NCBI GenBank assembly: GCA_037783545.1
Contig: JBBELK010000691.1
Location: 930,922 to 994,921 of the forward strand
Length of the DNA: 64,000 nt
Direction of reading: 5' to 3'
Origin: Henricia sp. BOLD:AAB3569
Lineage: Eukaryota; Echinodermata; Asteroidea; Spinulosida; Echinasteridae
Shown: piece after piece, positions 25,961 through 62,480 of the stretch
Layout: each line of letters starts with the position of its first letter
Position numbering within the stretch: position 1 is the stretch's first letter
Position numbers and translations under genes: made by a program
The notes under the pieces: generated by a model
Databases searched by the model: none
Told to the model about the DNA's origin: nothing
What the model saw: the letters and a program-made list of their open reading frames with translations, nothing else

Positions 25961-25983
25961 GGCGCTCTTAACGGACGACCACT

Positions 25984-38375: not shown

Positions 38376-41300
38376 ATGGTTGCAAGATTGGTCCTCGTTC
38401 TCGTTGCATTAGTGTTGTTACTTCAAGTGACGTCAGGCCAGGATGTAAGTATCATGCATGAACAGTTTTAGACATCTTAGTAAATGATAATAGGATCTTT
38501 GCACGGCGGCCATCTTAGGAGACAGGTGCTTTCTTCCCACACGTCTGGCATGTGTAGGTGCTTTGTGTCTCCCTTCACACATATCTATAACTGAGAAAGG
38601 TATTAAAGGAGCATGACCAGAGTTTCTGGAAAATAGTTTTCGATGGAACTTACAAATATTATCAAGTAACTCCCATACACACCTCCCATGTCCCAAAAAC
38701 CCGAAAACATTCGCGATTTCCATTAAAAAATTGAACAAAACTATCGTCGGCCTTCAGTGATAAACGTTGATACTGGAAAATTAGTTTACAAATAATCGGT
38801 GGATTTTCGACGATATCCTCGGAAATATGCGGCCTAGAAGCGCGGGAGTTTCAGTTTCGTAATCAGAAAAATATAACGGATGTTATGATATAAAAATCTC
38901 ATGACCCATAAGAAAAGTCCCGGGGAGTTATGGGTAAAAAAAAGTGATCTGGTCACACTCCTTTAAAGAGTTTGTTTTCTCTAAAATGACTCGTCAAGCA
39001 TTAGTGGTAAGTGCAGATTTGATGGAAAAACACAAATTTAGGAGTGAGAACATTTTGTGAGGAAACACTATTTTTCAGCCTGTCTTATTTGTTTTGTACC
39101 CAAGCTCTAAAGCCATAATAAACTACTTCATTCATTCCGATTGCAATGAACATCATGAATTCTGAACCTAAATATTCCTTTTTTCCTCAAACCCAACAAG
39201 ACAAATTAACGTCACATGATTATCTTTGTTCCAGGTTGAGGGGTGTGACGTTACCAAGGGATGTTTAATCAAATCATGTACAAGCGGCGAACCATGCACA
39301 GCATTTGTAACTTGGGAGACAACTGCTAGTGGACGCACTAAATTCTCCATGAAGGCCGAGAGAGCAGCTGGCCTGGCATGGGTGGCTGTCGGACTCCGAC
39401 CGTCAACTCAAACCAGTGGAATGGTATGTAGTTTTAACCCCTAACTGCCCCCCCAATAAAGTTCAGGACATTGCGTGCATTACCATGATTGAAAGATAAA
39501 TTTAGAAACATGAGAAAATTGCAGTGCCCTGACTGGGATTCGAACCCAGGTCCATGGCTTACATGGCCAATTGCTCTACCAACTGAGCTATCTTGGAATC
39601 CCACCGGAGCACCACAACAATCCCGTGTTTGCCTCTCTTTTAATAGCCAGTTGGTTGGCATGGATTTGCCCCACTGCATTGGGGGAAAAAGAGAGGCGAA
39701 CACGAGATTTGTGAAGTATGAGAAAATTGCAGTGCCCCGACTGGGATTCGAACCCAGGTCCATGGCTTACATGGCCAATTGCTCTACCAACTGAGCTATC
39801 TGGGAATCCCACCGGAGCACCACAACAATCCCGTGTTGGCATGGATTTGCCCCACTGCATTGGGGGAAAAAGAGAGGCGAACATGAGATTTTTGTGGTGC
39901 TCCGGCGGAATGCCCAGATAGCTCAGTTGGTAGAGCAATTGGCCATGTAAGCCAAGAACGTGGGTTCGAATCCCAGTCGGGGCACTGCAATTTTCGCATG
40001 TTTCTAAATTCATCTTTCAATTATCAATCCTGTCATATATATATACCTTCAATTGCCATGATTATTAGAAAAATTGATAAAAACATTTCCATTTTTAAAT
40101 GGTTGTTAATTTTAGAAGTTTGTTTGCCTTTTCCAAACTTCATAGCTTGCTTTTTGGCGGGACTTAAGCCCATATTTTATCGTGATGCCAAAAATTATGA
40201 ATGCTAGGATAGGGCGACAATTTGTGTGTAAAAAAGCTATATTAGGGCGACATGCTCAATAGGGCGACATTTTTAAAAATCTTTTTTTTGGGTCAAAAAC
40301 CATTTTCTTTAAGGTCAAAAACCATTTTTATTAGGACTAGAGCTATTTCTCTTTGGTCTGGAACCATTTTTGGAAGCTTTGGGTAAAAAAAATAAGGTGT
40401 CATTTTGAGTGACTCTTGCCGAAATTTTGGTGGTCCCCGGGGAGAGTCTTCCCGAAATGTCGCCCTATTTGCGGCATCCAGAGTTCTTACATTTACATTA
40501 TTCTTTATTACCAACCAGGCGCCAGCTGATGTTTATGCATGTACAAGTTCCGGAGTTCAAAGGTCAGAAAATGTAGGATTTAACTCGGAAAGCAGAGCAA
40601 TACCAATGGTAAGTATTATGAATGTAGGTTAGTTGACTTCAATGCTCAATTAGTGGGGCATCTGCACATTAAACAGAAGGTCTACAGTTCGAATCCTGGT
40701 GGAGCAAAGTTGTTTTTCACTGCATCAAAATTTCACTGCATCATGGACATTTGGCCGCATTTCTATCTAATTGCCTTTAATGAATACATCTCTGAAATAG
40801 AAAATTTGTTAAAAATTACTTTAAACTTATTTTGGAGAATTTTTTTCTTATCCCAAGTTTGGTTGTTTCATTTCAATGGTGATCAGGCACCATACAAGAT
40901 GTTGCATTCGTTACTTTGCCCAGTTGCGCCACCATGCAATATTGAGAGAAACATTGGGTCCATAGGGAAAACATGAGGAAATATCAAGTACCAACTCAGC
41001 TGGTAGAGCATCTGCCTAGTGAGTCAGAGGTCTCGGGTTCGAATCCTGATAAGGCCCTTACGATTTTTCTCTCATCCCAAGTTTGGTTGTTTCATTACAA
41101 TGGTGATCAAGCACCATACCAGATGTTGCATTCGTTACTTTGCCCAGTTGCACTACCATGCAACATTGAGAGAAAAATTGGGTCCATAGGGAAAACTTGA
41201 GGGGGAATATCAAGTACCAACTGTGCCTTATACATGTAGCTCGGGTGGTAGAGCATCTGCCCGGTGTGTCAGAGGTCTCAGGTTTTTTCACTCATTCCAA

Positions 41301-44300
41301 GTTTAGTTATTTTTGGGAAGAGAAATAGAATCCAAAAAAGTGTTGTTGCTGTATTTACACCTTGTGCTGCATGTATTCTTGTACAGAACACCACAACAAC
41401 TGAATCTAGTAGCAATGTCAATGGCGTCATCAACTGCATTTTCACAAGAGAACCTAGCTTGGAGGGGGACGATAAATTCTACAACATCAGCGGAGACAAT
41501 GCCTACTACATTTTATTGGCTGTTGGCGACAACATCAATGGTGATGGTACGTTTCTTCATTATTAATTTTTTTCTGGTATAGACTGCTGGGCTGCGTTCG
41601 GGCGTGCAGTTCTCGCTACTCCGGAGTAATGCGTGCGCATTGCACTCGGGTCACATTACGCGAAATGGCACTTGGGCGAAGTGGTTCAGGACAAAGTAGT
41701 CCAGGGCGAAATGGTTTTGGGTCGAATTGAATTTATGTCTTGTTTTGCTTATTTTTCAAAGGCTATAGCACTTAAGACAAAACTATTTCAGCGGACGTTT
41801 TCTACCGTCATGTTTATATCGTGTAAGTTATGTGTAAATCTGTGCACATTTCTGATTCTTCGAGATACCAATCATGTGTACTGCCTTTAACCATCGGCCA
41901 AGGCTGTATCCTCCCAAGGGAGCTGAGGAATGATGTAATAGACCGATCCAGTAAGCTCCGCCCATTTTGGAATTGACCAATCACAGCCTCAGGTTCAGGT
42001 AACCAAAATGTTTGGTTACCCGAGTCCTCAAAATGTTGTGCACAGAGCTACGGCAAATGCAGCACGAGTGACGCAAAAACACCATAAACATCATTTTTAT
42101 CAGCACAGAGGACCCTAGCCAGTTTAAAAGGGGAGCTTGAGTCTATCGGTATATTACGCCTAACGACCAGGGATGATAATCAATGTTATCAGTGCCTTAT
42201 ATGTGCACTATATAAGACTCCAGCGTCGTTATTGCATGAATTGTATAGCCGCCTTTCCTTAGGTCTGTTTTTCATCTGTCTTGCGTTTTTCATCCGTTTG
42301 CGTCTGAATCGCTCCATAAACTTAAGCGTTCCATAGACCAATATAGACAGACGAGTGCAACGCAAACGCAACACACGCAAGATGGATGAAAAACAGACCT
42401 AAGCAATAACCTTTTGTCATTAATACAGGAACTATTGCAGGAAATCAACACAACGCACGTTGGCCATCAAGTAAGGCAATGCAATTACAGGGGGACTTCA
42501 CTATGGTAACCGAACCACCAGCGCAAGGTGTAAGTCAAATTTCGATCTTCAGTGGGAAAAACCCCAAGATTATAGGGAACTAAAAACGTCACCCTTTGTG
42601 TGTCTACACTACACTACACTACTCAGAAAAAGTCAGGGATATTGTGGGGTGTACGCAGATATTTTATTGAGGGTATGCATTCCGCTTGAATGATTTTGTA
42701 TACGATTAGACAATTGTATCTGCATGACAGAGCACCTTGTCACAGGAATAGGTGTAAACAGTCATTTCCAGAAAAAATCTAAAAATCCAAAAACACAACA
42801 TACCAGTATTCCCTAACTTATTTTGAGTATAGTTTAAAACCAGCAAACTGTTTTATACCCAGCCTGATATGTGGCAAAGGGACTCCCCCCCTAACGGCCC
42901 TATACCTTAAACACGCTCTTCCCCCTAAAAACTGAAAGGAATTCCTTGGAAATTCCTTGGATGTTTGAGTCACAATGGTAGGGGGGATACCCTCTGCCAT
43001 ATATCGTGCTGCATATGAACTGTTTCCCTGTGCTTTAGCAATGAACATTCTCTATTGTGAAACATTTGAATTTTGTTCATCCGCTACACATTTTTCTAGT
43101 TGGATGGATGTGGTCAAACTGTTGGCTGTTTCACGCCTGACGCAGAATGCGGAGGTGATTGCAAGGCATCTGTCATGTATGCGATGCAGGATGATGGGAG
43201 GGTCAAGTTTACTCTAAGTGGTCAAAGCTCAGCAGGAATTGCCTGGGTTGCCGTGGGACTGCGTCCATCTAGTACATCCTCGGGAATGGTAGGAATTTCT
43301 CTTTTATACACCGAGTGGTAAAAGAAATGCAAATTCACAGTTTAAGCAAAATTTGAAAATTTCTTTTGTAATTATAGCTGACATCGAAATATTCTATTAA
43401 CAGCTTCATTGTGCATTACTGCATTAAATGTCAGTGTGCTGAAAATTTCCACTCTTAAGCGGGCCTCCCACTGTGCGATTTTCGCCACGAATTTCCTACG
43501 AATTGGTACGATTACCAGAGACTGTCTTTAGACTCTTCACACAATCGTACCCAATCATAGGAAATTCGTGGCGAAAATCGCACAGTGGGAGGCCCGCTTT
43601 AGACTGACTGCTTTTTTATATTAAAAAGTAGACAAATTTTTACATTTCTTTTGCTGCTGTGAATGGTTTTAATGTTAGAATTGGAGTGCTAACAGTAGAG
43701 TGGTGAAGATCCACAATCCACACAATAGACACTTTGCATGGACGGCCATCTTAAGGAAAAGTGCATCATGTAAGAGTAGGCACTTTGTGGATCTATCGTG
43801 ACAGCATTCAAATTTGAAAACCTTCACCTAACATGGCTGCCAGTGAAAAGTGTCTATTTATTGTGGATGCTTGTGCCGGTTATCGCTCGAGCCACGTGAC
43901 AGTGCAATGGGCACTTTAGAGGAATCCTTGGTATGAATACCAGAAAGAAATAATAATAATTGTAAGAACTCTGGATGCAGCAATAGGGCGACATTTCGGG
44001 AAGTCTCCCCACGGGGACCACCAAAATTTCGGCAAGAATCACTCCAAAAGACCTTATTTTTTTACCCAAAGCTTCCAAAAATGCTTTCAGACCTAAGCGA
44101 GACGGTTCTAGACCTAATAAAAATGGTTCTCGATTCAAAAAAAAAGGTTTTTGACCTAAATAAATAATTTTAGTTTTAATAGTATTCAGCTTTTAAATGG
44201 GATACCAGTATATGTGTAAAGGGTTTTGGCATTGTTTAAAATTACAGAAATTAGCACACTTTTATCCTTTATTTTTTAGACTCCAGCAGATGTATATGCA

Positions 44301-47300
44301 TGTACAAGCAGAGAACAGGTTGAACGATCAGAAAATGTTGCAGCTGGTGGTTTGAATTCTGTAACCAGGACGATACCCTCAGTAAGTACATCAGTATTAT
44401 GTGTATGTAATTTGTCATACATGATGCAGAATATGAAGAGTTTCATCGCAAAACACTATTAATTGCTCTCCGGTGACGTCACCCCTTCCATCAAGGGCCA
44501 CATACGACTTTACATGCACTGTAAAATGTTGTGAAAAAAATTAGTTTTTGGCGGGAGGGAGGAGGGTCTTGATAAACACGCTTTGTAGAACTGTGAAAAT
44601 GTTGACGACTTTAGATGGCCCCTTATCTCAACATTTTCCTTTAATTACAAACCATGTTTTTGTTCTTTTCCATTGCAGGGAGCTGTCACATTGGATTCGA
44701 TAGAAGCTATGAATGGCATGATAACCTGCACGTTCACCAGACAAGCAACCGTTGCAGGAGCTGATGACAAATTCTACGACATCACAAGCGGCAATAAATA
44801 TTTTCTGTTGTTGGCAATTGGCGACAATGTCAATACTCCTGATGGCAAGTAGCAATAAGTTCCTTTTAGCAGAAAATGAAATGAAACAACCAACTTGGGA
44901 TGAGAGAAAAATCATTTGGGTTTTATCTTGATTAGAAACCATATTTTGCTAAGTTGTGCTCCCATACAGCACTGAGAGTAAAATTGGGTTCCTCCGGAAT
45001 AACCTTGTAGCAGAAAGGATAGAAATGAAATACATGTAAGTTATTCATCGTTGTTATTGAAGAACAAAGTGACTTATCTGGGCCCTATTTTAGAGCAGCA
45101 TAACATTTAATAGCGAAAAAAGTATGCTTATTATAGGATACAAGTCCTGCTATTTCACGGTCGCTGCGTACTTAGAAACGTGTATTGTTGTGTCACTAAC
45201 TTAAACAGCTAGAATCCCCCCTTGACGAAAATCCAGCATTTGGGCTTTTTTCGATAGTCCAAACATCCCTCTTGCCGACGTGGATTTTTTTTTTTTTTAA
45301 TTGTCGGTTTTAAGTGGATAAATTGCAAGCAAAAGTGCGCTTTTCGAAAATGTTCGCGATTTCTGAAACGCTCATTAGGTATTCATGATATGCGCGTGAC
45401 GCAATCCTGAGAAAGAGAAGTCGACACGATTGTTAGCTCCATACGTTTACACGCAAAAAACTTGGAAAACCGTCTCTGTTAGATGGTGATTTTTGAAGAA
45501 TTTTGTTGGTCCAAAAAGCCAGAAATATGCCCAGTAGCTGCGTGATTGTATGTTTTACCAGACACTATGAAAAACAAAGAGCAGAAAGATTTTCTTTTCT
45601 ATTACCAAGCGAGAGAAAAATGAGTCGCTCATTCTATACCTTGTACGGCCGATGTTCAAACACGTGGGGTCTACGCGTACGTACGCCCGCACCATGCTGT
45701 ATACAGACCCGCTGTGAATGCCGTTCGTTCCCGGCCGTGACAAAACATCATCGGCGTCGCAATGCACCAGTATTTACTTCAAAAGAGCTTCACTGAGAGC
45801 CACAATTTCATCGTTTTTTTCACAAAACAGGTAATAGTAGATTGTTGTCATATTACATGAAGTGTTTTTCACGTTTGTATTTTGAATTACAAGGACAAAA
45901 CAGGCATGATAAACATTCACTTCGTGTATTTTCCATTCAATACTGCACAGACCGTTTTGTATGTTTCTCAGGATGACGTCAAAACCCTGTTGATAAACAA
46001 GCCGAATGACCTTGAGCGTTTCAGAATTTGGGTGAAGAGGGTCGGAACTGCTTTACGTTTTAAGCAAAAGCCTGTCGATTTTTTGTGAAAAACAAGTTGT
46101 GACGGTGTTGTAGACACATACACCTCCATGATAAACAGAAAAACTAAAAAAATGTGGAAGGGGGGATTCTAGCTGTTTAAGCAATGTTTATTTCTGCAGT
46201 TGAGATTGTTAACAGTGAAATAGTAACAAAATGTCACGCAAGAGATGTCCTTGTTACTTCAAAAGTTTTTACTTTAAATTTGTTGCCGTTCTAGGGCTGA
46301 AGTCTTTCCCTTTAAATTCTCTTGGGAGACATTTAAGATTTTAAGGGATTAAAAGTAGGTTTGGCCAATTCTAAACATACGTTTAAAACCAGCTAGGGGT
46401 CCTGGGCACTGATAATGCCCGAGCCGCCACCATTCATACATACCTTTTCGTGTAAATCGGTAAAACACCCACAGTATCAACACCGCGTTCGTACAACTGC
46501 TAGCTGTGCGTCATGTTGTTTTTGTTCAATTACGCGTAACGTAGGCGTGTTGCGCGCGCACGCACACGACCGGATATAAGTGCACAATTTGCTTTCGGGC
46601 GAGTGCAGTTTCTGTGTGCATGTGCATAATCCGTATACACGCTGACTAGGGCACAAACACGAGCCAGCCGGCCGGGCATTATGACTGGTCATTATCGCTA
46701 GTTTAAGACTGCCCATGTGACGTGCTCTCAGCCAATAGGGATGCGTAAACTGCCTAAGGTATTTATTAATTATACTTAAAATGGCCTGTCACACCACTAG
46801 TAAAAATGATTCTTTCTTGGTTTTCAGGAACAATCCAAGGTAATCAGCATACAAACAGGTGGGCAGCACAAGAATCTGTGGACTTAAATGAGTTAAATGC
46901 AGCTACTGAACCACCAATGGGGACACAGATGCCAGCGCAAGGTGTAAGTTATATTTCGCTCTTTAAGGGGAAAAAAAACCCCAAGATTATAGAGAACTAA
47001 AACGTCACCCTTCGTGTGTCTACACTACACTACTCAGAAAAGTCAGGGATATTATGGGGTGTACGCAGATATTTAATTGAGGGTATGCATTCCGCTTGAA
47101 TGATTTTGTATATGATTAGACAATTGTATCTGCATGACAGACACACCTTGTCACAGGAATAGGTGAAAACGGGCATTTCAAGAAAAAAATCCAAAAACAC
47201 AACATACTATTACTAGTATTCCCTAACTTATTGTGAGTATAGTTTAAAACCAGCAATCTGTTTTCCTGTGCTTTAGCAATGAACATTCTCTATTGTGAAA

Positions 47301-48518
47301 CATTTGAATTTTGTTCTTCATCCGCTACACATTTTTCTAGTTGGATGGATGTGGTCAAACTGTTGGCTGTTTCACGTCTGACGCAGAATGCGGAGGTGAT
47401 TGCAAGGCATCTGTCATGTATGAGATGCAGGATGATGGGCGGGTCAAGTTTACTCTAAGTGGTCAAAGGTCAGCAGGAATTTCCTGGGTCGCCGTGGGAC
47501 TGCGTCCATCTAGTACAACCTCGGGAATGGTAGGAATTTCTCTTTTATACACCGAGTGGTAAAAGAAATGCAAATTCACAGTTTAAGCAAAATTTGAAAA
47601 TTTCTTTTGTAATTAAGCTGACATCGAAATTTTCTTGTAACAGCTTCATTGTGCATTACCGCATTAAATGTCAGTGTGCTGAAAATTTCCACTCTTAAGC
47701 GGGCCTCCCACTGTGCGATTTTCGCCACGAATTTCCTACGAATTGGTACGATTACCAAAGACCGTCTATAGACTCTTCACACAATCGTACCCAATCATAG
47801 GAAATTCGTTGCGAAAATCGCACAGTGGGAGGCCCGCTTTAGACTGACTGCTTTTTTATATTAAAAAGTAGACAAATTTCTTTTGCTGCTGTGAATGGAT
47901 TGAATGTTAGAATTGGAGTGCTACAGTAGAGTGGTGAAGATCCACAATCAACACAATAGACACTTTGCATGGACGGCCATCTTAAGGAAAAGTGCATCAT
48001 GTAAGAGTAGGCACTATGAGGATCTATCGTGACAGCATTCAACTATCAAAACCTTCACCTAACATGGCTGCCAGTGAAAAGTGTCTATTTATTGTGGATG
48101 CTTGTGCCGGTTATCGCTCGAGCCACGTGACAGTGCAATGGGCACTTTAGAGGAATCCTCCCAAAGGATTATTTTCAAACTCATGCTTCTGGTCCACAAA
48201 GCTCTCAACAACAAGGCTCCCTACTACATTAAGGAACTACTACATGAATATTCTCCAGCAAGAACTCTTAGATCAAGTAACCAGCAACTTCTCAAGGAAC
48301 CAAATTCTAAGCGAACATGGGGCGCCAGATCTTTTTCTGTTGCAGCTCCTCGACTTTGGAATTCATTGCCACTTGACCTCAGATCATGCCACTGTACAAC
48401 TAGGTTCAAATCACTTCTAAAAACTTACTTAATGTCGCAAATTTTCGAGAATTAATTACTTGTTGTTGTTAACAGCGCCTTGAGCACCCTGCAGGGTGGA
48501 TATGTGCGCTTTACAAAT

Positions 48519-48550
<32 letters not shown>

Positions 48551-51500
48551 CCTTGGTATGAATACCAGAAAGAAATAATAATAATTGTAAGAACTCTGGA
48601 TGCAGCAATAGGGTGACATTTCAGGAAGTCTCCCCCCGGGGACCACCAAAATTTCGGCAAGAATCACTCCAAAAGACCTTATTTTTTTACCCAAAGCTTC
48701 CAAAAATGCTTTCAGACCTAAGCGAGACGGTTCTAGACCTAATTAAAATGGTTCTCGATTAAAAAAAAAAGGTTTTTGACCTAAATAAATAATTTTAGTT
48801 TTAATAGTATTCAGCTTTTAAATGGGATACCAGTATATGTGTAAAGGGTTTTGGCATTGTTTAAAATTACAGAAATTAGCACACTTTTATCCTTTATTTT
48901 TTAGACTCCAGCAGATGTATATGCATGTACAAGCAGAGAACAGGTTGAACGATCAGAAAATGTTGCAGCTGGTGGTTTGAATTCTGTAACCAGGACGATA
49001 CCCTCAGTAAGTACATCAGTATTATGTGTATGTAATTTGTCATACATGATGCAGAATATGAAGAGTTTCATCGCAAAACACTATTGATTGCTCTCCGGTG
49101 TTGTCATTTTTCATGAGCCACGTGGCTTAAGTGATAACTGGCCAAAAAGGCAATAAAAGCGCATTGGTTGCACTTACCTCCGTTGCTTAACCTTGCTTTA
49201 TGTTGTTGCGCCATGGCTGTTGTATCGATCAAGCAAAAACCCTTTGTTTTTACAAGCTGCAGTGCGAGCTAAATAATTTGACATATCGCAACGCACGCAT
49301 GCAGCATCTTCGAATGAAAGTACGCTGATGAGTCACGGACGTATGTATGTTGTGAGTATATTCTATGCAGGCCCATGTACGTGCGTGACCACAAAATTGG
49401 GGGGTGGTGGGGGGGGGGGGGGGGGGTGTTGAGGGCCACATACGATTTTACATGCACTGTAAAATGTTGACAAAAAATGTTGATAAGTAGTTTTTCGCGC
49501 AGGGGAGAAGGGTCTTGAAAAATGTGCTCTGTAGAACTGTGAAAATGTTGACGACTTTAGATGGCCCTTTATCTCAACATTTTTCTTTTATTACAAACCA
49601 TTTTTCTTTGGGTTCTTTTTCATTGCAGGGAGCTGTCACATTGGATTCGATAGAAGCTATGAATGGCATGATAACCTGCACGTTCACTAGACAAGCAACC
49701 GTTGCAGGAGCTGATGACAAATTCTACGACATCACAAGCGGCAATAAATATTTCCTGTTGTTGGCAATTGGCGACAATGTCAATACTCCTGATGGCAAGT
49801 AGCAATAAGTTCCTTTTAGCAGAAAATGAAATGAAACAACCAACTTGGGATGAGAGAAAAATCATTTGGGTCTTATCCTGATTAGAAATCATACCAAAAA
49901 TTGTGTTCCTTATTTTGCTCAGTTGTGCTCCCATACAGCACTAAGAGTAAAATTGGGTTCCTCCGGAAAAACGTTGTAGCAGAAAGGATAAGTTCAAATA
50001 GAAATGAAATAGATGTAGGTTATTCATCGTTGTTATTGAAGAACAAAGTGACTCATCTGGGCCCAATTTTAGAGCAGCATAACATTTAATAGCGAAAAAA
50101 GTCTGCTTATTATAGGCTACGAGTCCCGCTATTTCACGGTCGCTGCGTACTTAGAAACGGGTATTGTTGTGTCACTAACTTAAGCAATGTTTATTTGTGC
50201 AGTTGAGATTGTTAACAGTGAAATAGTAACAAAATGTCACGCAAGAGATGTCCTTGTTACTTCAAAGGTTTTTACTTTAAATTTGTTGCCGTTCTAGGGC
50301 TGAAGTCTTTCTCTTTAAATTCTCTTGGGAGACATTTAAGATTTTAAGGGATTAAAAGTAGGTTTGGCCAATTTTAAACATACGTTTAAAACCAGCTAGG
50401 GGTCCTGGGCACTGATAATGCCCGAGCCGCCACCGTTCATACATTCCTTTTCGTGTAAATTGGTAAAACTCGCCAAAATTAGCTCTATTTGCCATGTTTT
50501 ACATTCACTTTCTTACACCCACAGTATCAACACCGCGTTCGTACAACTGCTAGCTGTGCATCATGTTGTTTTTGTTCGATCGCGCATGTTACGCGTAATG
50601 TAGGCGTGTTGTGCGCGCACGCACACGACCGGATATAAGTGCACAGTTTGCTTTCAGGCGAGTGCAGTTTCTGTGTGCATGTGCATAATCCGTATACACG
50701 CTGACTAGGGCACAAACACGAGCCAGCCGGCTGGGCATTATCACTGGTCATTATCGCTAGTTTAAGACTGCCCACGTGACGTGCTCTTAGCCAATAGGGA
50801 TGCGTAAACTGCCTAAGGTATTTATGAATTATACTTTAAATGGCCCGTCACACCCCTAGTAAAAATGATTCTTTCTTGGTTTTCAGGAACCATCCAGGGT
50901 AACAAGCATACAAACAGGTGGGCAGCAGAAGAATCTGTGGACTTGAATGAGTTTAATGCAACTACTGGGGGATCCCAAAACATTGCATTGGCCAAGGCTC
51001 ATGGTAAGATTGCATTATTAAAGGCCCATTGTATCATTTGCAATGACCCAACTTTGTTTTTCATGAGTTGACAAAAAAAACCGTACTCAAAGTATTAATA
51101 GCAATGGTAACAAAACACCACATGAATTTATTTCCGTCCAAAATGGTATTTCATGCTGTAAAATGGCAACCGAAGGTGGTTTTCTAACCTGTGCAAGGGA
51201 CTTTTTTACCCTTCACTTGTACACAAAATTCATATATAGATTTTCAAGGTTTTCTGAAGCATTGATGCATCTAAGTAGCTAACATTTCTTCAGGCTAGTT
51301 TACCAACATTCTTCCTTAGATATGTTACACTCTTATTCCTAGAATCTGTAAAAAGTTTTATCTTGCAAATGATACATAGGGCCTTTAAGGGTAAATATTC
51401 AAGATACTGTGTTTTCTGCTTTTCATTTTTGTTGTCTGAGTTTTTAAAGAAATTTTCTGATATGAGCTCAAAGGAACTCCTTGACAAAAATAACATCCTC

Positions 51501-53408
51501 TAAACAAAAAAGGAGAAGCTACTGCTTCTTGTGTATGATCCTTAACAGATTCGAGTTTGGTTTTAAAAAATACTACCAATATGCAGCAAACACCACAAAA
51601 TGTGAGTCTGTGCTGAACCTGTCATTCCATACTTGGATTTAGTACAGGTTGAAGAAATTATGGAAACAAAGCCACGTTTTGTGACCTCAACGCGACTCCG
51701 TGGGACATGTAAGATGTGTTCGTTGGCAAGCTTTGTCCGTCGCACAGGCACATACAAACTGAAAGGGTTGGTCAAGCTGAAATGATTGTGAAAGTGTTTA
51801 TACAGAAATAAAGAGTCATTGACGGTACGCCTAACAGACAGTGGAGAAAGTTTATACAAATCAACCAAAGATGCAAGGCTTAATCAAAGATGAAAACACA
51901 AAGATATAGGCAATCCCCAATACCATATATGACCAGACTCATTAACTCCACAGTGGTGCAATAGTTTGTTTGATATTTTGCACATATAACTATTTTTATT
52001 GTATGCTTATGTTAATTAATGGAAGCCAAATTGTATAAGTCTTTGACTTTCTATTTGGTTGTGTGACCAGAAATTGATTGATTGATTGATAAAGTTCTAG
52101 ATAATCAGGAATGTCTGAATTTTTATATCGTTTGCATCATTCATTTGGTAGTTTTTGCTCAACAGTCACCTAAGATGTTCTCTGATGCTCTTAAAGGTAG
52201 TATACTTGTTGGATAAAGTGTAAAAAACGGCGTGATTTCCACTGGTAATTGAAAGCATAGGTCGAGAAATTTCAGCCACAAAGATGCAGCAATAGTTCAG
52301 AAAACATGAAAAATCCAAGTACGGTTTCTGTGCATGAATGAATAGCTCCAAAGATTGCCTACAGGCGATCTTTGGAGATTCAAATAGTTTTGTCATTTTT
52401 CTCATGAATGGGGGGAAATTCAGAGGAAATAGTTTCACAGGATGATTACTACCATTACCATCTTGATAACAAGTAAGCTTAAAGATAATACATGTAATTA
52501 AGAAAAAAAGGGCAATCACCAAACAAGTAGACTACCTTTAACAAGGGACATATTCCTCTACCAACCCTTGATTTATCAGCTCAAAATTTCTACCTTTTTT
52601 TACTTCCCAGCTTCTCTGATGTTGATCGCCTGGTTGGGTTTTGCAAGCATTGGTATCACGATGGCTCGTTACTTCAAACCCATGTGGCCTTCCTCAAAAC
52701 TCCTGGGCCAAAAAGTATGGTTTATGGTGAGTAAACACGAATCTTAGGTGTTAAAAGCAAATTGCTGATGATTCCTTAACCCTAACACTCCTAAATCCTC
52801 CAAAATCAGTATGATTTTACATACACCCTTGAGAGTTAGGGTTAAGCTTGATAAAAGACACAGAGGTCTGTTCTATTTGTGACGTTTACCGAGAACAAAA
52901 TTAAAATGTAGACTTTGTTGGTTGGTTGTTTCATTTCATTTTCTGCTAAAAGGAACTTATTGCTACTTGTCACCAATTGCCAAAAGCCATAAAGTAAAGC
53001 GGGCCTCCCACTGTGCGATTTTTGCCACGAATTAGCTACGATTGGCTACGATTGGGTACGATTGTGTGTAGAGTCTATAGGCTGTCTCCGATAATCGTAC
53101 CAATTCGTAGGAAATTCGTGGCAAAAATCGCACAGTGGGAGGCCCGCTTAAAATCACAATTAACACAAGTTTCTAAACACAAACATGAGAAAAACACACA
53201 TTTTTCTTACGAGAAAACACAAGGTTTTTATTATGGTGTCTCGGGAAGGCACTGAGTGTACAATGCTAGTCAAGTTACGCCGGGTAAGGGTAAAACAAAC
53301 TGTGGATTGTATATTACATATTGTATCTAATGAAGTAGTTGCTGCTACGAAAGCTCACGCAAAACTTTTAAGTAGTGTATAATTTTGAGATATTTATTTA
53401 TTTATTTT

Positions 53409-53445
<37 letters not shown>

Positions 53446-53507
53446 ATTAATTAATTAATTAATTAATTTATTTATTTATTTATTTTTTTATTTATTTATT
53501 TATTTTT

Positions 53508-53550
<43 letters not shown>

Positions 53551-56500
53551 TATACCACATCCAACAGCGGAGGGACCGCCAATTACAGGAATGGGAGCAA
53601 GTGTGGTTGAGTGCCTTGCTAAAGGGCACAGGTGCCACAACCCGTCACGGCCAGGAATTGAACCTACATTCTAGTACTAGCACAGGAACTTAAGTTCGAC
53701 GCACTAGACCGCTCGGCCATAACACCCCACAATTAATTGTTATAAGTAAGATTTGAGGCTATGCATGGTGGAAATCAACATGTATGGGTTTGCGGTAGCA
53801 CCGTGTGAATCTCTTTTGTATATGTGTGGTTCTGAAAAGAACCGGTGAGTGTTATAGTTCTAGTGATTACTGATACATGTAGTATTTTCATCAACATCTC
53901 TGCTGCATTGCATTATTTTCAATTTTTGTTATTTCAGATCCATCGGATATGCATGATGTCCTGTGTTTCGTGCTTCATTGCTGCCTTCATCCTGATATTT
54001 GTCTACGTGGGTGGTTTTGTTAATACTGCAGTAAGTGGACAAAAAACTAAATTTGAACACAAAGATGGCAGTGCCCAATCACTGTATGAATTGAAATAAA
54101 AACATTGCTGGTGAGAATATTGTATTTGCAATTCGGTCAAGATAAGGAAAATCAGAAACAAATTAATGTCCAACATGTGATCTAAAGTTTGTTTAAAACT
54201 CCTTTTTGTTTTCTTCCTCAGGTTAAAACAACATTGGCCCATGCCATCTGTGGGATCATCGTGACAACTTTGGGAATCATTAACCCCATCATGGCCATCT
54301 TCAGACCTCACCCAGGAACCCCTAAGTATGAAATGTCTTAAACCCTGTCAAGAAACGAGCTGCCGAGAAAGGAAAAAAAAAAACCTGCCGAGAAAAAAAG
54401 ATAGAAAGAAAGAAAAAAATGAAAACACTATGCCAACCAGACCGCCCTGCAGTGCCAAAGGCTTTGTTTAACCTATTTATTACCAGACCATGATTTGTTT
54501 GTCTAAAGCCGTGTCCGTATTGGACTAATTTTGGTAAAACTTACGGAGAGCTCCGTAAATTCTACCAAATTTAGTCCAATGCGGACGGCCGGAAAACACC
54601 CGAAATTGTAATGTGTCGACTGTCGATTGTAATTGTTCCGCTACGTCGTTGTAATTCTTACGGGGCGAGCTGGGTCGCGGAAGAATTACATTGTAGATTT
54701 TATAGCACTGGAAAGTCCCGTGCGGACAGGCATTGTAATGTAAAACGATCTTTACGGTCATGTGTGAGTGAATACGCACGCTTTCTTCACACAGACATGA
54801 CAGCAGAACATCCGGTGTCACGTTACGCGATCGTTTGTAGGACGCCCTCATTAGTTTTAGGGGCGACAGCATTGTAAAAGATTACGCGGCGGAAAGCCTG
54901 AAATAAATCCACGTACGGACGCATGGAAGAATTACCACGATGGAATGTTTACAGCGGCCCGCGGAAACCTTTTACAAAATTTAGTCCAATGCGGACGCGG
55001 CTTAACTAATAGCGAGAATATCTCGGCACAACACTCATGGAAGACTAATTATATCTGTTCTGTATCTCTCTGTATAAATATGACAGACAACATCTGTAGT
55101 GTAGTATGTATTTTGTGTAAAAATCAACTCTACCTTTACTTAATTTGGACATAATTTAATGTTCTAAATATGTTATTTTGTTTTTTCCTTGACGACTACA
55201 GCCGACCTATTTTCAACTGGGCCCACTGGGGTGTTGGTACCACAGCGCATCTGCTTGCAAGTAAGTAAGATTTGTACACAACATATAATAGCAGTACAGC
55301 TTAACACATTGACTGCCGACCATAGTTTCACAGGGCATTCTCACGGGGCGTTTCAGTAGTCTGTGGGACTAATTCAGGGCACACGATCAAATTGTCTATA
55401 CGTGACTATGGTCTATTGATTGCTTTCCGTGACGTAGAACATCCTGGAATGTTTGGTGGTCAACGATCACGCGTGTACACGCGCTTGCCAATAGACGCAC
55501 ATGAGCACGCGTAACAAATACTCACCAGCAGATTTTCATTCGAAGATGCCGCACTCGCGCGCTGCGATACGTTTAAATTATTGAGCATGCACTCAGCTTG
55601 TAAAAAAGTGCTTCTACTTGATCGCGATTTTTAGCCTGAAAAAATACAAGAGCCGTGGCGCAACAACATAAAGCAAGGTTAAGCAACAGAGGTAAGTGCA
55701 ACCAATGCGCTTTTCTTGCTCTTTTTGCCGGTTATCACTCGAGCCACGTGCGTCATGAAAAATGACAACCAAAATGGTGGATGGAAGGGGTAACGTCACC
55801 GGAAAGCAATCAATTGATGGTACCTTTAGAAACTGCCCAAAGTTGTCAAACATTTTCACATTTATTTGTCACTACCATGAAATGTCAACAATTTACAGTG
55901 CATGTAAAGTCCTACACTGCCCTTGACTCCCTCCCCTTATCCTACATTTTGTAGAATCATTAACAATTTTACAACTTTTGACACTTTTCCTTTTTACTTT
56001 TTTTCCTGTAACAGTGGCAACCATTTTGCTCGGATTGAACTACAACGCACCCCTTCTGGGGCTACCCAAATCGTTGTTCTTCATCATGATTGGTTTCGTA
56101 GCTTTCCATGCGGTAGCTTGGATCATATTCCAGGTTCAGCTTTGCATGACTGAGAATAAAGGTAGGGATTATTCACTGCCCCAGGAACCACAAGCCTGTA
56201 AGAACAGTTTGCAGATGATTCTTCTATCCTGCTCACAACAAAAATAAGACTTGAATGAAATTTTTCTAAAATTTTCATTTGTTGGCCTTGACATTTTTTC
56301 TCTCATCCCAAGATTTGTTGTTTAACCTTTTAAACCCTAAATGTCATTTGTGACTTCCCCGTGAACAAGGAATAACCCGATGAGCTATTGTGACTTTTGA
56401 GCGACGTCTTCATAACCGGTTGACAAACCGGTGTCATTGAGCATAAATCATTTAGGGTTCAAAGGGTTAATTTCAGTAGTAATTAGGCATCATACAAAAT

Positions 56501-59500
56501 ATTTAATTTGTTTCTTTGCTAAGTTGCGCTCCCATGCAACACCAAGAGAAAAAGGGAAATAGGGAAATCCTGAGAGGGTATATACCACTGTGCCTTATAG
56601 CTCGGCCGGTAGAGCGTCTGCCCAGTGAGTTAGAGGTCTTGGGTTTGAATCCTGATAAGGCCCATATGATGTTTCGCTCATCCCAAATTTGAATGTTTTC
56701 TACATTAGATCATAAGGCATATCTGATGAGTTTATGTTATCACTCGTCAGATATTTCTTATTATATTGTTTATGGTAAAAAACAAATCAAGACTGACATA
56801 TTTGGATGTTTTACAATACAATACCCAAATGCCAAGAATTAAACCCATATTTTACAGTTTCTTTTTTAAACAAATTTATTCACTCTTATAAAACAAGGTA
56901 TGTATTATGCACAAAATGCTTTTCTCAAGTAACATTCTAAAAACTCATGGCATGCTCAGACGGGATGGAACCCATGACCTCCTGCTTGCTGTATCTCAAG
57001 TTTATGCATACCTCATTTTAAGTTCCTTTTTTTAAACCAAATTTTAGTGGTAGGGCCGGAGCCTGCTGCGCAGCCACCCCCTGATAAACCAGGTACCCCA
57101 ACATTCTCACATTTATCGCATGCATCCTGCATTCTGTGAGCTCAGTTACCATTCTCTAACTGAGTGTTGTATTGACTTGACTTGACTTGAGACTCAAACC
57201 TCAAATGACTTGACTTGAGACTCCGGCCTCAAATGACTCGACTTGAGACTCCGGCCTCAAATGACTCGACTTGACTTGAGACTCAAACCTCAAATGACTT
57301 GACTTGAGACTCCGGCCTCAAATGACTTGACTCCGGCCTCAAATGACTCGACTTGACTTGAGACTCAAACTTCAAATGACTTGACTTGAGACTCCGGCCT
57401 CAAATGACTCGACTTGACTTGAGACTCAAACCTCAAATGACTTGACTTGAGACTCCGGCCTCAAATGACTCGACTTGACTTGAGACTCAAACCTCAAATG
57501 ACTCGACTTGACTTGACTTTTTGACTTGAGTCTGCAAAAAAAATGAAACTGAACTTTTATGCAATTTTGTTGTCATTTTGAGGATCAAATTGTATTTCAG
57601 CACTACAGATAGAGACTGAGCTTTGTTTTAACATGGAGCATTCTTGGCCAGAACAACAAAAGTAGTTTCAGCATTTACACTCACTTTGAAATTAGTTTAA
57701 ATAAATTTACTTTCATTACTACTTGACTTGACCCAACTTGACCAACAAGCCTGACTTGACTTGACTTAACTGCGGATTCAAAGGCGACTTGACTTGGGAC
57801 ACGAGGGCAGTTTGACTTGACTTGACTTGACTTGGGACTCGAGCAGAGGGAGATTCGTTACAATCCTGGTAACTAAATCATATGATGGACATATTCATGC
57901 AAATTCCATTAGATGCTGTGTACTATTCATGCTTAACATTTGTGTGTTGTCTCAACATTTTTTTGAACAAAAAGGTTTGCTGAACAGTTTAGTCATAGCT
58001 TAGTCATCATTCTTCACTTGATTTTAAGGTTATACCATACTCATCTGAGATCCAAAACATTGGTCACAGGCATTGTATGGTATTCTGATGTCTGTTCAGA
58101 TTCCTTACATGCAAACATGTTCATTTATTTCATTTGTGTGTATTGAGTGTTGTGTCTGCACATTCAGCCTTAATTCTGTCTATCCATTTCACCAAAAGTG
58201 TGTTTTCCCTCTAAAATCACTTGAATTTCCATACCTTTTCTGAATTGTTGTAATTTGTTGTGATATGGTTCATTCTATAAATTTGGGGTCCAACGTGTGA
58301 CAATTTTCCGTCCCTGTTACACCTGACATACTGCTATTTGCCATACAAGTGTCATTAAAAATGCCTTCAAACCATATTTTTATGAATTGTATTTTATGTA
58401 ATCACTCTTTGAAATAGAAGGCATTTAAAGAATATGAATTTACAAAATACAACATTTTACAAGATGTCAGATGTAACGGGGACAGAAAAAGTGGACCCCA
58501 AATTTATAGAATGACCCATGTGTCGTGGATGTGAAGTTTACTCAAGATTTATGTTTTGTAAAGGCCCGTTTACACTTGATTTGCCTTTGCCGAATCGAAC
58601 TCTGCAATTTCCAAAAAGGGGAGTTCAAGCCGGGTAGGCGCTAGGTGTAAACGCAAAAGGTGAATTGAAAAAGGCGGATCAGACCCGGGTCTGATTCACC
58701 TTTTTCAAGTCACTTTTGGGGTAGGGTTGAACCCCGCAATTGTCAAGGTCGCTGGTAGTGTAAACGCTACCCGAATACAGATTCGGCAATTTGAGTGTGC
58801 TTGGGGCGGTTAATGCATGACTCCCCTCTAAAACCTAAAAAGGAAATTCGTTGGATGTTTGACACACAATGGGGAACAACGGAAGAGGGGAGTCACCTGG
58901 TCTCATATCATGCACCAAATGCTATAAACGCCATTTGTTTTATGTGTTAAGATCGCAGCAACGATATCCCAATGAGATCTGCAGGTGGGACAAACTCCAC
59001 TCAACAACTGTCAGGGGATCCCGAACCACCAGCCGTAAGTCATATGCTTCTTTTTTTCCACAGGGTGTCCTCCCCCTCCCCCTCCCCCTCCCCTCCCCCA
59101 CAAAAGTTCAAGCCAAACCAGGCAACGTCACAATGACGAGATTCCTCCCGGTCCTGGTCCATGTAAATGAGGACCCTTTTTAAATGAAAATAGCCTTTAT
59201 TTCATCAAAATCACTCAAGTCAGTTGGAAGTTATGTCATTGTTGAGCAAAGTCACACCCTAGTTCAGGAACCACATCTGATTATTTGACGACAAGAACTG
59301 GCTGCCCAGTTTGGGATTTATGAGTCAGAAGGCAGTCATTGGCCTTTCTCAATTTCAGCCCATAGAGTCAGCGTGAAAATCTAAGTTTGTATTGTTGGTT
59401 TGTCCTCTCTAAAATGTTTCAGCCTGCCCTCTGGGACAACTTGTCCACACACTTTGCGGTTTGTTAAGGGTTATACAGCATCTTTAAAATTACTTGTGTG

Positions 59501-59907
59501 TCAGAGGTTTGATTTTCAATGAGGACACACCTCATTTTTCACACTTTGTGTCTGATTACAGTGAAACCTGCTATTAAGGCCACCTTGATAAACAGGCCAC
59601 CTGCTTATACTGGCCACCTTTCTTTGGTCCCAACTGCCATTTGTATAATGCTTAAGCAACCTCTATAAAGAGGCCACCTGTTTATAGAGGCCAGTTTTTT
59701 ACGGTCCCGAGGGTGGCCACTATAGACAAGTTCCACTGTATTTCGTTCTGGTTATTACAGGTTTTTTTTTACCAATGTTCTCATCAATCTGTGTGATTTT
59801 GTTGTTTCCTGCAGGGTGCAACAGCCAAGTCGGTTCTTCTTTCCATCTACATCTTGGGCGTTTTGGTCTTTGTTGTTGTTCTTGTCCTTTTCATTGCATT
59901 TAATTAA
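38376..59907 (+). CDS. Three-DOMON cytochrome b561 protein, FRRS1-like, complete
   Basis: Predicted multi-domain transmembrane reductase of about 831 aa. Coding exons: 38376-38444, 39235-39423, 40519-40608, 41387-41546, 42429-42529, 43100-43288, 44280-44381, 44679-44844, 46828-46943, 47341-47529, 48905-49006, 49629-49794, 50887-51003, 52611-52726, 53938-54030, 54222-54325, 55202-55260, 56015-56161, 57048-57092, 58952-59034, 59815-59907. Phases agree throughout; introns are GT-AG except two GC donors (44845, 49795). A 23-residue signal peptide (MVARLVLVLVALVLLLQVTS) is followed by DOMON1 (24-203), DOMON2 (204-394) and DOMON3 (395-585), then b561 with histidines 626, 662, 698 and 741 and a C-terminal helix after a Pro-rich cytosolic stretch. 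Candidate DOMON heme ligands are Met86/His177, Met266/His363 and Met457/His554. Exon 57048-57092 is absent from my minus-gene model. The acceptor of the start exon is at 38350. Reductase activity is inferred from family. Confidence 0.9.
38598..38966. repeat. MITE with TTAAAGGAG ends
   Basis: ATTAAAGGAGCATGACCAGA at the left and ATCTGGTCACACTCCTTTAA at the right; both edges carry TTAA. A diverged relative is at 34385-34670. In the first coding intron. Confidence 0.8.
39480..40020. mobile_element. Three tRNA-Thr-like SINE heads, two minus and one plus
   Basis: At 39517-39592 and 39733-39808 (minus) and 39910-39984 (plus), TAGCTCAGTTGGTAGAGCAA (A box), an anticodon loop CATGTAA (TGT) and GGGTTCGAATCCCAG (B box) recur. 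All run into TGCAATTTTC.CATGTTTCTA. The two minus copies are also a tandem duplication with the stretch CCAATTGCTC..GGATTTGCCCC. Stem mismatches and shared tails favour SINEs over working tRNA genes. Confidence 0.75.
40640..41290 (+). mobile_element. SINE cluster, 'CTTATAGCTCGG' head family
   Basis: Two or three tandem partial SINEs: heads like CAGCTGGTAGAGCATCTGCC with GGTTCGAATCCTGATAAGGC, and bodies with AATGGTGATCA.GCACCATAC and CATGCAA.ATTGAGAG. Relatives at 56480-56700, 62340-62480 and 765-1080. Confidence 0.75.
42250..42412. repeat. MITE 'TTAGGTCTGTTTTTCATC'
   Basis: TTAGGTCTGTTTTTCATCTG at the left and GGATGAAAAACAGACCTAA at the right with inner TTGCGT / ACGCAA matches. A second copy is at 60070-60222. 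Confidence 0.82.
43457..43600. repeat. Palindromic MITE 'AAGCGGGCCTCCCACTG', unit A copy
   Basis: AAGCGGGCCTCCCACTGTGC and its complement at the right, with arms continuing through GATTTTCGCCACGAATT. Same site in unit B (47697-47840); a further independent copy at 52997-53150. Confidence 0.9.
43726..43860. repeat. Diverged 'ATAGAC..TTTGCA' MITE, unit A
   Basis: AATAGACACTTTGCATGGAC and CAGTGAAAAGTGTCTATT ends; core GTAAGAGTAGGCACTTTGTG. The unit B counterpart is at 47957-48094. Confidence 0.75.
44455..44510. repeat. Remnant of the TTGATTGCTTTCCG MITE, unit A
   Basis: ATTAATTGCTCTCCGGTGAC...GTCACCCCTTCCATCA is one end of the MITE seen whole at 55416-55813, cut off at AGGGCCAC. Confidence 0.7.
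45205..46176. mobile_element. Kolobok-like DNA transposon (TTAA target, THAP remnant)
   Basis: A 972-base insertion with inverted ends ACAGCTAGAATCCCCCCTT and AAGGGGGGATTCTAGCTGT, flanked by TTAA on both sides (45201-45204, 46177-46180). Unit B has one TTAA and no insert at the matching place (about 50182). It contains a degraded THAP-type N-terminus (MPSSCVIVCFTRHYEKQRAE). TTAA duplication plus a THAP transposase is characteristic of the Kolobok superfamily. No full transposase remains. It lies in the intron between exons 44679-44844 and 46828-46943. Confidence 0.85.
45527..45650 (+). pseudogene. THAP zinc-finger remnant inside the TTAA transposon
   Basis: The frame reads MPSSCVIVCFTRHYEKQRAE then FSFLLPSERK, resembling the start of THAP domains (Cys, 2-4 residues, Cys, then F..LP). 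The remainder of the C2CH motif and the catalytic domain cannot be followed. Decayed transposase start rather than a host gene. Confidence 0.6.
46340..46775. repeat. MITE 'AAAGTAGGTTTGGCC', unit A copy
   Basis: Same edges and core as 32950-33250, with a CpG-rich insert (GTTGCGCGCGCACGCACACG). It ends just before the linker exon at 46828. Confidence 0.78.
47697..47840. repeat. Palindromic MITE 'AAGCGGGCCTCCCACTG', unit B copy
   Basis: Positional counterpart of 43457-43600, so the insertion preceded the duplication. A few substitutions separate the two. Confidence 0.9.
47957..48094. repeat. Diverged 'ATAGAC..TTTGCA' MITE, unit B
   Basis: Positional partner of 43726-43860 with minor differences (GCACTATGAGG for GCACTTTGTGG). 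Confidence 0.75.
48160..48548 (+). mobile_element. 5'-truncated CR1/L2-type LINE with (ATT)n tail
   Basis: Encodes the C-terminal end of a reverse transcriptase polyprotein (LVHKALNNKAPYYIKELL; APRLWNSLPLDLRSC; FKSLLKTYL) followed by a short 3' UTR and an ATT repeat. It is flanked by ATCCT (48155-48159 and 48549-48553). Unit A has the uninterrupted site near 43924, so the insertion followed the duplication. Confidence 0.85.
49083..49432. repeat. Larger remnant of the same MITE plus poly-G, unit B
   Basis: ATTGATTGCTCTCCGGTG continues with TTGTCATTTTTCATGAGCCA and the inverted MITE interior (TTGCTTAACCTTGCTTTATG), then a G run near 49398-49430. The unit A version lost most of this. Confidence 0.72.
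50350..50835. repeat. MITE 'AAAGTAGGTTTGGCC', unit B copy
   Basis: Positional partner of 46340-46775; keeps about 50 bases (CGCCAAAATTAGCTCTATTT region) that A lacks. Confidence 0.78.
51019..51390. repeat. MITE 'AAGGCCCATTGTATCATTT' with TTAA flanks
   Basis: TTAAAGGCCCATTGTATCAT at the left and AAATGATACATAGGGCCTTT...AA at the right. Closest intact member to 6494-6835. Starts 15 bases after the linker exon of DOMON3. Confidence 0.85.
52195..52537. repeat. MITE 'AGGTAGTATACTTGTTGG' with TTAA duplication
   Basis: AGGTAGTATACTTGTTGG at the left and CCAAACAAGTAGACTACCT at the right, flanked by TTAA at 52191-52194 and 52538-52541. It ends 73 bases before the first membrane exon. Confidence 0.87.
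52997..53150. repeat. Palindromic MITE 'AAGCGGGCCTCCCACTG', third copy
   Basis: Independent insertion after the first membrane exon; slightly longer because of extra GATTGGCTACGATTGG sequence in the loop. Confidence 0.88.
53395..53560 (+). repeat. (TTTA)n / (TTAA)n microsatellite
   Basis: About 160 bases of TTTA repeats with a TTAATTAATTAA segment. It abuts the 3' end of the minus-oriented SINE that follows. Confidence 0.95.
53555..53732 (-). mobile_element. tRNA-Leu(UAA)-like SINE, minus orientation
   Basis: The minus strand reads TATGGCCGAGCGGTCTAGTG (A box), an AACTTAAGTT anticodon region, GGTTCAATTCC (B box), then CCCTTTAGCAAGGCACTCAA. The (TAAA)n tail is the adjacent microsatellite. 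Head resembles tRNA-Leu with a long variable arm. Confidence 0.75.
54504..55004. repeat. MITE 'TAAAGCCGTGTCCG', 500 bp
   Basis: TAAAGCCGTGTCCGTATTGG at the left and CCAATGCGGACGCGGCTTA at the right; a second internal inverted copy (ATTTAGTCCAATGCGGAC near 54568) makes a nested palindrome. CpG-rich interior. Confidence 0.82.
55416..55813. repeat. MITE 'TTGATTGCTTTCCG', copy 2
   Basis: TTGATTGCTTTCCGTGACGT and CGTCACCGGAAAGCAATCAA ends; interior GTTAAGCAACAGAGGTAAGT and GGTTATCACTCGAGCCACGT, as in 32040-32418. Confidence 0.88.
56327..56468. repeat. MITE 'CTTTTAAACCCTAAATG', intact copy
   Basis: TTAACCTTTTAAACCCTAAA at the left and ATTTAGGGTTCAAAGGGTTA...A at the right, with TTAA at the edges. 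The core GACTTCCCCGTGAACAAGGA is shared with 11437-11630. Confidence 0.82.
56480..56700 (+). mobile_element. SINE, 'CTTATAGCTCGG' head family
   Basis: GCCTTATAGCTCGGCCGGTA, then GGGTTTGAATCCTGATAAGG and CGCTCATCCCAAATTTG; preceded by a body piece CTCCCATGCAACACCAAGAG. Confidence 0.75.
57168..57530 (+). repeat. Minisatellite ACTTGACTTGAGACTC
   Basis: Higher-order repeat built from ACTTGACTTGAGACTC plus AAACCTCAAATG or CGGCCTCAAATG; an outlying CTTGACTTGACTTG segment is at 57720-57845. In the intron between exons 57048-57092 and 58952-59034. Confidence 0.93.
58265..58522. repeat. MITE with TATAAATTTGGGGTCC ends
   Basis: ATGGTTCATTCTATAAATTT...GGGGTCC and its inverted partner; core as in 15135-15388. 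Confidence 0.83.
59066..59099 (+). repeat. C-rich polypyrimidine tract
   Basis: Repeated CTCCCC units starting about 30 bases after the splice donor at 59034. Confidence 0.85.
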
Positions 59908-61226: not shown

Positions 61227-61593
61227 AATACAAATACATTTTTGTTTAACCACGGGGTGTTTTACAAATTGAAAAGGCAGCTTGTTTTATTAGTACAGTG
61301 TGCATTTGTTTAATATTATTTACGTAGAGTTGTTAAGTTAATTATTACTTTGTTTGTAAACGGGCCCATGAAATATGACTGCTAAATGGGCAGATCTCCG
61401 TTTTTGTTTTCGGGTACTCGAACTCCAAGCAAACGGACTTGGTGACATGTCCTGGTACGAATCCCCAGGGTGTTGTCTGTAATCTAAGCTTCATATACCA
61501 GTTACACACAAGCACCATGGAGTTATCGTGAGACCGTCACTGATAAGAATCCTGTAATACAGAGTTATTTTTATTTAACTAGTTTAGTGTATC

Positions 61594-61599
61594 AATAAA
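61594..61599 (+). promoter_or_regulatory. Candidate poly(A) signal for the three-DOMON gene
   Basis: AATAAA within TATCAATAAAAACC, the first clear signal after the stop at 59907. Confidence 0.35.
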
Positions 61600-61784
61600 A
61601 ACCACGTACTGTCTTATTGAATGGAAATGCTTGCTTGTCCGAACTGGACTTTGGTCTATTTGTATGTGGACTCCACCCCGGTATTCAATACCCAGTGGTA
61701 GATGTAGCTATTTTGACGAGAAAGATGTGACATTTTACAGCTTGTTTGTCCACAGTAATAATATTAACAGCAAGTTTCAGCAGT

Positions 61785-61843
61785 AAAGGAAGGATCAGCT
61801 TCAACAACGCAGCAGCAGCAGCAGCATCATAGAAGAAGTGACT
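61785..61843 (+). promoter_or_regulatory. Probable non-coding first exon of the third DOMON gene
   Basis: A CAG-rich leader (AACGCAGCAGCAGCAGCAGC) ends at GTGACT|gtgagt at 61843; the next exon begins at 62593. The left edge is estimated. No strong TATA box; the AT-rich stretch at 61755-61770 might serve. Confidence 0.45.
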
Positions 61844-62339
61844 GTGAGTACTTCATATCGACTGTACGTCTCTGCAACTGTAATTCATGTAAATTTTAGT
61901 TTTAATTTTAGTTAAAAGGCTCATTGTATTATGCACCTTTCAATGGTTTCTATGCATTAAAAGAAAAAAGAAAAGCAAAAAGTTGCCACTGACAATATTA
62001 AATTGTGATCATCATCCAATTTCGAGACGGGAAAAAAAACTGGCAAACTTAACGAAGCTATTTAGGCCAACAAATGAGTTATTTATTAGCGTAGTGCGTA
62101 TTACGATCACCAGAATTAATCATTTGACCATCCTGAGCTATCGAATGCCGGTTGTAGTTCAAGTGCTGTGACGTACAAAGTCTGTTTTAAATTGTCATTA
62201 GACTAAAGTAAACCATTTCTGTTGGGAAATTTTGAAGTGGTTTAGGGAAAGAAGTTAGAGTCGAACCTGGTCAAACCTACAACATGTATATATACAAGCT
62301 ATGCATCCATGTAACACTATAAGGAAAATGTGGTCCTGA

Positions 62340-62480
62340 GATAGTGTATATCACTGTGCCTTATACCTCAGCTGGTAGAGAAGCTGCCCGGTGTGGCAGA
62401 GGTCTTAGGGAAAACCTGAGGAAGTACACCACTGTGCCTCATAGCTCACCTGGTAGAGCATTTGTTTGTGTGTCAGAGGT
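62340..62480 (+). mobile_element. Paired SINE heads, 'CTTATAGCTC' family
   Basis: CACTGTGCCTTATACCTCAG...CTGGTAGAG and again CACTGTGCCTCATAGCTCAC...CTGGTAGAGC; B boxes are degraded. In the first intron of the third gene. Confidence 0.65.

Follow-up and report, generated by a model that had tools for sequence, protein, structure and literature searches.

A Henricia gene with three DOMON domains and a cytochrome b561 part, and a difference in DOMON number between two contigs

The window analyzed here, the final 64 kb (64,000 nucleotides) of contig C691 in a Henricia sp. genome assembly of 740.7 Mb and 2,104 contigs, contains a gene for a protein with three consecutive DOMON domains ahead of a cytochrome b561 part, and a second contig of the same assembly, C105, carries a version of this gene with four. 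The third DOMON is young and comes from a recent tandem duplication. Judging from the sequence, it is likely that the gene encodes a transmembrane electron exporter of the CYBDOM class (DOMON plus cytochrome b561) with an expandable, and probably haplotype-variable, array of heme DOMONs.

Gene model and domain architecture

The rebuilt gene lies on the plus strand and runs from an ATG at 38376 to a TAA at 59907 (positions are those of the window unless a contig is named). It has 20 exons and a coding sequence of 2,451 nt, giving 816 amino acids with a single stop. The protein reads, in order, signal peptide, DOMON 1, linker, DOMON 2, linker, DOMON 3, linker and b561 part. An earlier note on this DNA had proposed that exons assemble in frame into a signal peptide, three DOMONs and a b561 domain with four histidines, and the model bears this out. 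All modelled exons keep open frames and have GT-AG or GC-AG splice ends. A pseudogene reading of the window copy was considered and is ruled out by 20 exons with one stop.

Exon 1 (38376-38444, phase 0) holds the start codon and the signal peptide, MVARLVLVLVALVLLLQVTSGQD, with a hydrophobic segment at residues 1-19. Each DOMON is encoded by three exons, a to c, and followed by a linker exon; exons a were placed by the gene model and Pfam, exons b and c by the gene model. For DOMON 1, exon a (39235-39423) ends in Met86, a proposed heme ligand, exon b (40519-40608) reads APADVYACT..., and exon c lies at 41387-41546; linker exon 1 (42429-42529) carries His177, the second proposed ligand. DOMON 2 comprises exon a (43100-43288, ending in Met266), exon b (44280-44381) and exon c (44679-44844, with a GC splice donor), followed by linker exon 2 (46828-46943), which carries His363. 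DOMON 3 has exon a at 47341-47529, ending in Met457, an exon b (48905-49006) identical to that of DOMON 2, and exon c at 49629-49794, again with a GC donor. Linker exon 3 (50887-51003), with His554, leads into the membrane part. The linker exons encode 34-39 residues.

The membrane part begins with b561 exon 1 (52611-52726), which holds its first hydrophobic segment, and continues through exon 2 (53938-54030, H626), exon 3 (54222-54325, H662), exon 4 (55202-55260, H698) and exon 5 (56015-56161, H741). A small tail exon (58952-59034) restores the phase ahead of the last exon; it was spotted by comparison with a minus-strand paralogue in the same window, in which a similar stretch follows. The intron before it contains a minisatellite (57118-57536) with a spacing of mostly 28 and 33 bases. 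The last exon (59815-59907) encodes the final hydrophobic segment and the TAA stop.

Pfam profiles were matched to a model that lacked the small exon. Three stretches of this protein match DOMON (110.4 bits, E 8.7e-32); taken singly, the modules reach 42.0, 39.6 and 39.7 bits, all above the Pfam cut-off of 32.7. Cytochrom_B561 (PF03188) aligns over positions 2-132 of 137 with 18.3 bits and E 0.0029, below its cut-off of 23. The profile search that the earlier note had proposed as a check came out in favor of all three DOMONs, each over the cut-off, and fell short for the b561 domain. Because this nearly full-length match scores below the cut-off, the b561 assignment rests on four histidines. 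The membrane part contains six histidines in all, of which H626, H662, H698 and H741 stand in family contexts and H685 and H706 are extra. H626 and H741 lie inside hydrophobic segments, H662 adjoins one, and H698 is found in the motif NWAHWGVG. Six helices are the number typical of the b561 family; a simple hydrophobicity scan returned the signal peptide and five membrane-part segments, with the segment around H698 below the threshold. Sequence searches against solved structures gave no useful match, the one hit being unrelated at E 0.61. Searching the whole genome for DOMON gave a list of nine places, all outside the window gene, probably because the search scores each exon separately.

Two related genes lie in the same window. 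The minus-strand paralogue (about 24604 to 19214 and beyond) has a single DOMON, and its exons follow the order and phases of the three-DOMON gene, with lengths of 189, 111, 160, 117 and 116 compared to 189, 90-102, 160-166, 101-117 and 116. We modelled it up to the second b561 exon, whose end was set arbitrarily, and its Met-His spacing, counted from the exons, is 98. The other relative, gene 3, starts at about 62996 on the plus strand, is cut by the contig end at 64000 and continues on C105 (C105:804001-824000). Read there module by module, it has four DOMON modules (A-D) and then b561 exons, which would together form one transcript. Its b561 exon 5 has Asp in place of the fourth histidine (VVFDIAIW), and a simple motif scan of gene 3 found no NWxHW exon. 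The GC donors after DOMON 2 exon c and DOMON 3 exon c, at 44845 and 49795, both read GCAAGT, as do donors in modules C and D of gene 3. Elsewhere in the window, plus-strand reading frames at about 5574-8000 presumably belong to a gene resembling those for oxysterol-binding proteins, and a 12-base tandem repeat at 28712-30444 (144 copies, 99% match) is open in several frames.

Proposed heme ligands and CYBDOM membership

In every DOMON of the window gene the first exon ends in a Met and residue 8 of the linker exon is a His, the two being 91, 97 and 97 residues apart in D1, D2 and D3; recounting gave exactly the placement and spacings claimed in the earlier note. In gene 3, too, the first exon of each of the four modules closes with Met, and the eighth linker residue is His. 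Over 170 residues, D1 and D2 share 50.0% identity. For an alignment of ligand positions we used six module lineages with one row each (G1, D1, D2 type, G3-A, G3-B and G3-D), omitting the six other of the 12 module copies as near duplicates. The Pfam DOMON profile matches each of the six lineages with an E of at most 0.1. They are 36.5-58.1% identical, with 36 of 160 ungapped columns invariant and 124 variable. Only one of the 13 Met-bearing columns and one of the seven His-bearing columns are invariant across the six lineages, and these two are the proposed heme ligands. The conserved Met/His pairs that had been noted earlier are thus the sole invariant Met and His, and they match ligands published for CYBDOM proteins: Met286 and His379 in Drosophila CG8399 (PMC10691727), Met89 and His180 in Arabidopsis CRR (PMC10784552), and M90 and H174 in HYP1 (PMC10784544). 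By subtraction, the published spacings are 93, 91 and 84. The Met and His of each DOMON probably ligate one b heme, so that one chain could hold up to five hemes. The likeness of D2 and D3 adds no independent support for heme binding, because one is a recent tandem copy of the other.

On its sequence, the window gene is best read as a CYBDOM. We refrain from calling it an FRRS1 orthologue, because both the SXDXXMGXD loop and the reeler domain are missing. The loop around the Met reads (S/T)SGM(T/A)PAD: in all three modules the Asp at Met-3, the Gly at Met+1 and the Asp at Met+3 are missing, and an acidic residue stands at Met+4. A Pfam scan of the modelled protein found no reeler domain; DOMON and b561 were the sole domains to reach E 0.01. 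SXDXXMGXD is reported to be highly conserved in an animal alignment, with Ser281, Asp283 and Asp289 strictly conserved, and its serine and two aspartates have been proposed as an iron site (PMC10691727). Human SDR2/FRRS1 and Drosophila CG8399 resemble the window gene in having DOMON followed by b561, Met/His ligands and four b561 histidines; they differ in having a reeler domain, SXDXXMGXD and normally one DOMON, compared to three here.

The earlier note had taken a single DOMON as the rule for FRRS1-type proteins. This holds as the normal state, but two-DOMON CYBDOMs have already been published, accounting for 19 of 888 insect hits, 17 of them in Hemiptera and two in Coleoptera (PMC10691727). 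In pea aphid CG8399, both of the two DOMONs have the Met and the His (PMC10691727), compared to three such domains in the window gene. In the text consulted from that study, these insect proteins are not described as varying in module number within any one species. Plant CRR shares signal peptide, DOMON and b561 with the window gene, as well as the Met-His spacing of 91 (PMC10784552), and the spacing of 84 in HYP1 is near that of the window gene (PMC10784544); CRR and HYP1 have one DOMON each, whereas the window gene has three. According to PMC10784544, a plant b561 may be joined to one or more DOMONs. The eFRE ferric reductases of Naegleria and oomycetes carry one or two extracellular DOMONs on a membrane ferric reductase, but their membrane domain is an FRD rather than a b561 (PMC3591440). 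Among the literature matches listed, most of them outside subscription journals, none described a three- or four-DOMON b561 protein or variation in module number; the phrase “three DOMON” in PMC3204972 refers to three genes. Outside this literature, unannotated three- or four-DOMON examples may well exist among eukaryote protein records.

Proposed electron export and the distal DOMONs

In the mechanism we propose, cytosolic ascorbate would supply electrons to the b561 domain, where they would cross two b hemes, as in other members of its family. The electrons would pass to the heme of the membrane-proximal DOMON (D3), and this heme would reduce an acceptor outside, for instance ferric or cupric ion. 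For CRR and HYP1, a path over three hemes has been predicted, leading from ascorbate in the cytosol to ferric ion on the outside, and electron transport or ferric reduction has been demonstrated for both (PMC10784552, PMC10784544). In a model of CG8399, the DOMON heme site faces and packs against the b561 domain (PMC10691727), which makes D3 the natural b561 partner in the window gene. The distal DOMONs would lack such a partner. D1 and D2 may supply extra redox sites, greater reach or binding; in our view their main contribution would be additional redox sites or a longer reach, a strict wire being less likely. A five-heme relay is possible, and would need close heme spacing; for HYP1, a DOMON-to-b561 distance of about 20.9 Å has been reported (PMC10784544).

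Of the alternatives to this reading, the strongest holds that only the membrane-proximal DOMON exports electrons, the others being spacers, adhesion modules or ligand-binding modules, with or without heme, and that there is no relay. We regard it as a real contender, though clearly behind an exporter with an array of heme DOMONs. The packing in the CG8399 model implies that probably one DOMON docks (PMC10691727), the linkers of 34-39 residues mean that distal modules may be flexibly held, and the recent copies are under weak constraint (see below). All three points are in keeping with a spacer role. Against it, the Met and the His are invariant in the distal modules too, across six lineages in which more than three quarters of the ungapped columns vary.

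Recent duplication and module number

Self-comparison of the window reveals a tandem duplication on the plus strand, with DOMON 2 in copy A (42518-46908) and DOMON 3 in copy B (46932-50967). The unit is about 4 kb long including introns, and 118 of 3,221 aligned bases differ between the copies; with gaps excluded, 17 of the differences fall among 550 coding bases and 101 among 2,671 noncoding bases (3.8% noncoding). At the protein level, D2 and D3 are 95.5% identical over 176 residues. The joint of the duplication falls inside linker exons and is in frame. Linker exon 2 is a chimera, its 5' part resembling linker 3 and its 3' part linker 1, and it carries six extra residues. The copies also contain non-aligning stretches of hundreds of bases. 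One of these, at about 48160-48548 in copy B, is missing from copy A and includes part of an open frame (48078-48452) that we take to resemble the end of a LINE reverse transcriptase. Between D2 and D3, synonymous divergence is 0.067 and nonsynonymous divergence 0.022 (8 vs. 9 changes; one-sided Fisher p 0.025), while dN/dS spans 0.23-1.00 across the ten pairings of the D2-type units on the two contigs. Purifying selection on recent D2-type copies is weak.

A DNA search of the species' own genome found three D2-type units on the minus strand of C105. The gene there has D1 plus three D2-type modules, making four DOMONs. Its frame stays open for 945 amino acids, up to and including b561 exon 5, and its Met and His lie 91, 98, 98 and 97 residues apart. 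The linker-2 joint and its six extra residues are present on both contigs. In linker exon 1 of C105, the last ~13 bases, the donor and some 500 bases of the intron are replaced by a foldback-like element of ~285 bases (C105 about 844,859-844,575). Because the usual linker-1 donor is gone, the four-DOMON frame requires another, ATG/GTAACC (slash at the splice point), which agrees with the consensus at six of nine positions, compared to 5 to 8 for the 19 donors of the window gene. D1 differs between the contigs by seven nonsynonymous and two synonymous changes.

The simplest reading of C105 is that it represents the other haplotype. In stretches sampled over ~123 kb (C691 871,974 to 994,921), intergenic DNA included, the two contigs are collinear with unaligned gaps. 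These stretches lie at 8,159-12,380, 18,797-29,065, 31,046-58,787 and 61,344-64,000 in the window, and at C691 871,974-879,650, some 51-59 kb upstream of it. Gapped collinearity of this extent is as expected of alleles, and argues against C105 being a paralogous duplicate of the whole region, in which case the two loci would differ in carrying three or four DOMONs and no polymorphism would be involved. In the same assembly, contigs C114 and C176 also look like uncollapsed haplotypes, sharing a common stretch (21 mismatches in a 2,453-column alignment) before diverging. Substitutions between C105 and C691 are uneven, ranging from 0.37 to 4.81% by block (>500 columns), which would fit a paralogous duplicate. 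So would a genome search with the far flank, in which C105 was absent from the 40 scored candidates, although a ~440-base repeat swamped that query. On balance, we consider a duplicated locus unlikely.

If C105 and C691 are indeed alleles, they represent heterozygous variation in the redox-domain number of one protein. The array would grow and shrink through unequal exchange of the four-exon module. Taken furthest, this would give a polymorphic multiheme wire, with alleles of three or four heme DOMONs (five or six hemes), length or capacity tuned by unequal crossing-over, and similar amplification in the neighboring gene; such a wire strikes us as doubtful.

It is likewise improbable, in our estimate, that one or two modules are left out of most mRNAs, which would make a protein with one or two DOMONs the norm and the triple form rare. 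The D1 and D2 modules measure 540 and 573 nt, both multiples of three with phase-0 junctions, and exon c of both D2 and D3 has a GC donor, all of which would suit skipping. The third module has 574 nt, and skipping it would break the frame. The open frames and the GT-AG or GC-AG ends kept by the model exons speak against regular skipping.

Very improbable is an assembly artefact in which two alleles of one D2 unit were set end to end to give the third DOMON: the noncoding divergence of D2 and D3 does fall within the between-contig range and the window ends exactly at the contig end, but C105 also has tandem D2-type units with the same in-frame joint and six extra residues, copies A and B contain the non-aligning stretches described above, and gene 3 likewise has two closely related proximal modules.

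Those two modules of gene 3, C and D, are close in a tree of the 12 module copies (branches 0.083 and 0.021). The tree is unrooted, and separates the D2-type modules of the window gene plus gene 3 C and D from the other five rows with a support of 98/97. G3_B, G1 and G3_A have long branches, and we leave the deeper forks open. If the root lies outside the group of D2-type, C and D modules, the proximal-type module predates the split of the genes, and each gene multiplied that module later.

For the exporter with a variable DOMON array that we favor, the variable module number heightens interest, and the youth of the third module lessens it. One genome with one-, three- and four-DOMON genes, all keeping the proposed ligands, could show whether the extra DOMONs add hemes, reach or rate.
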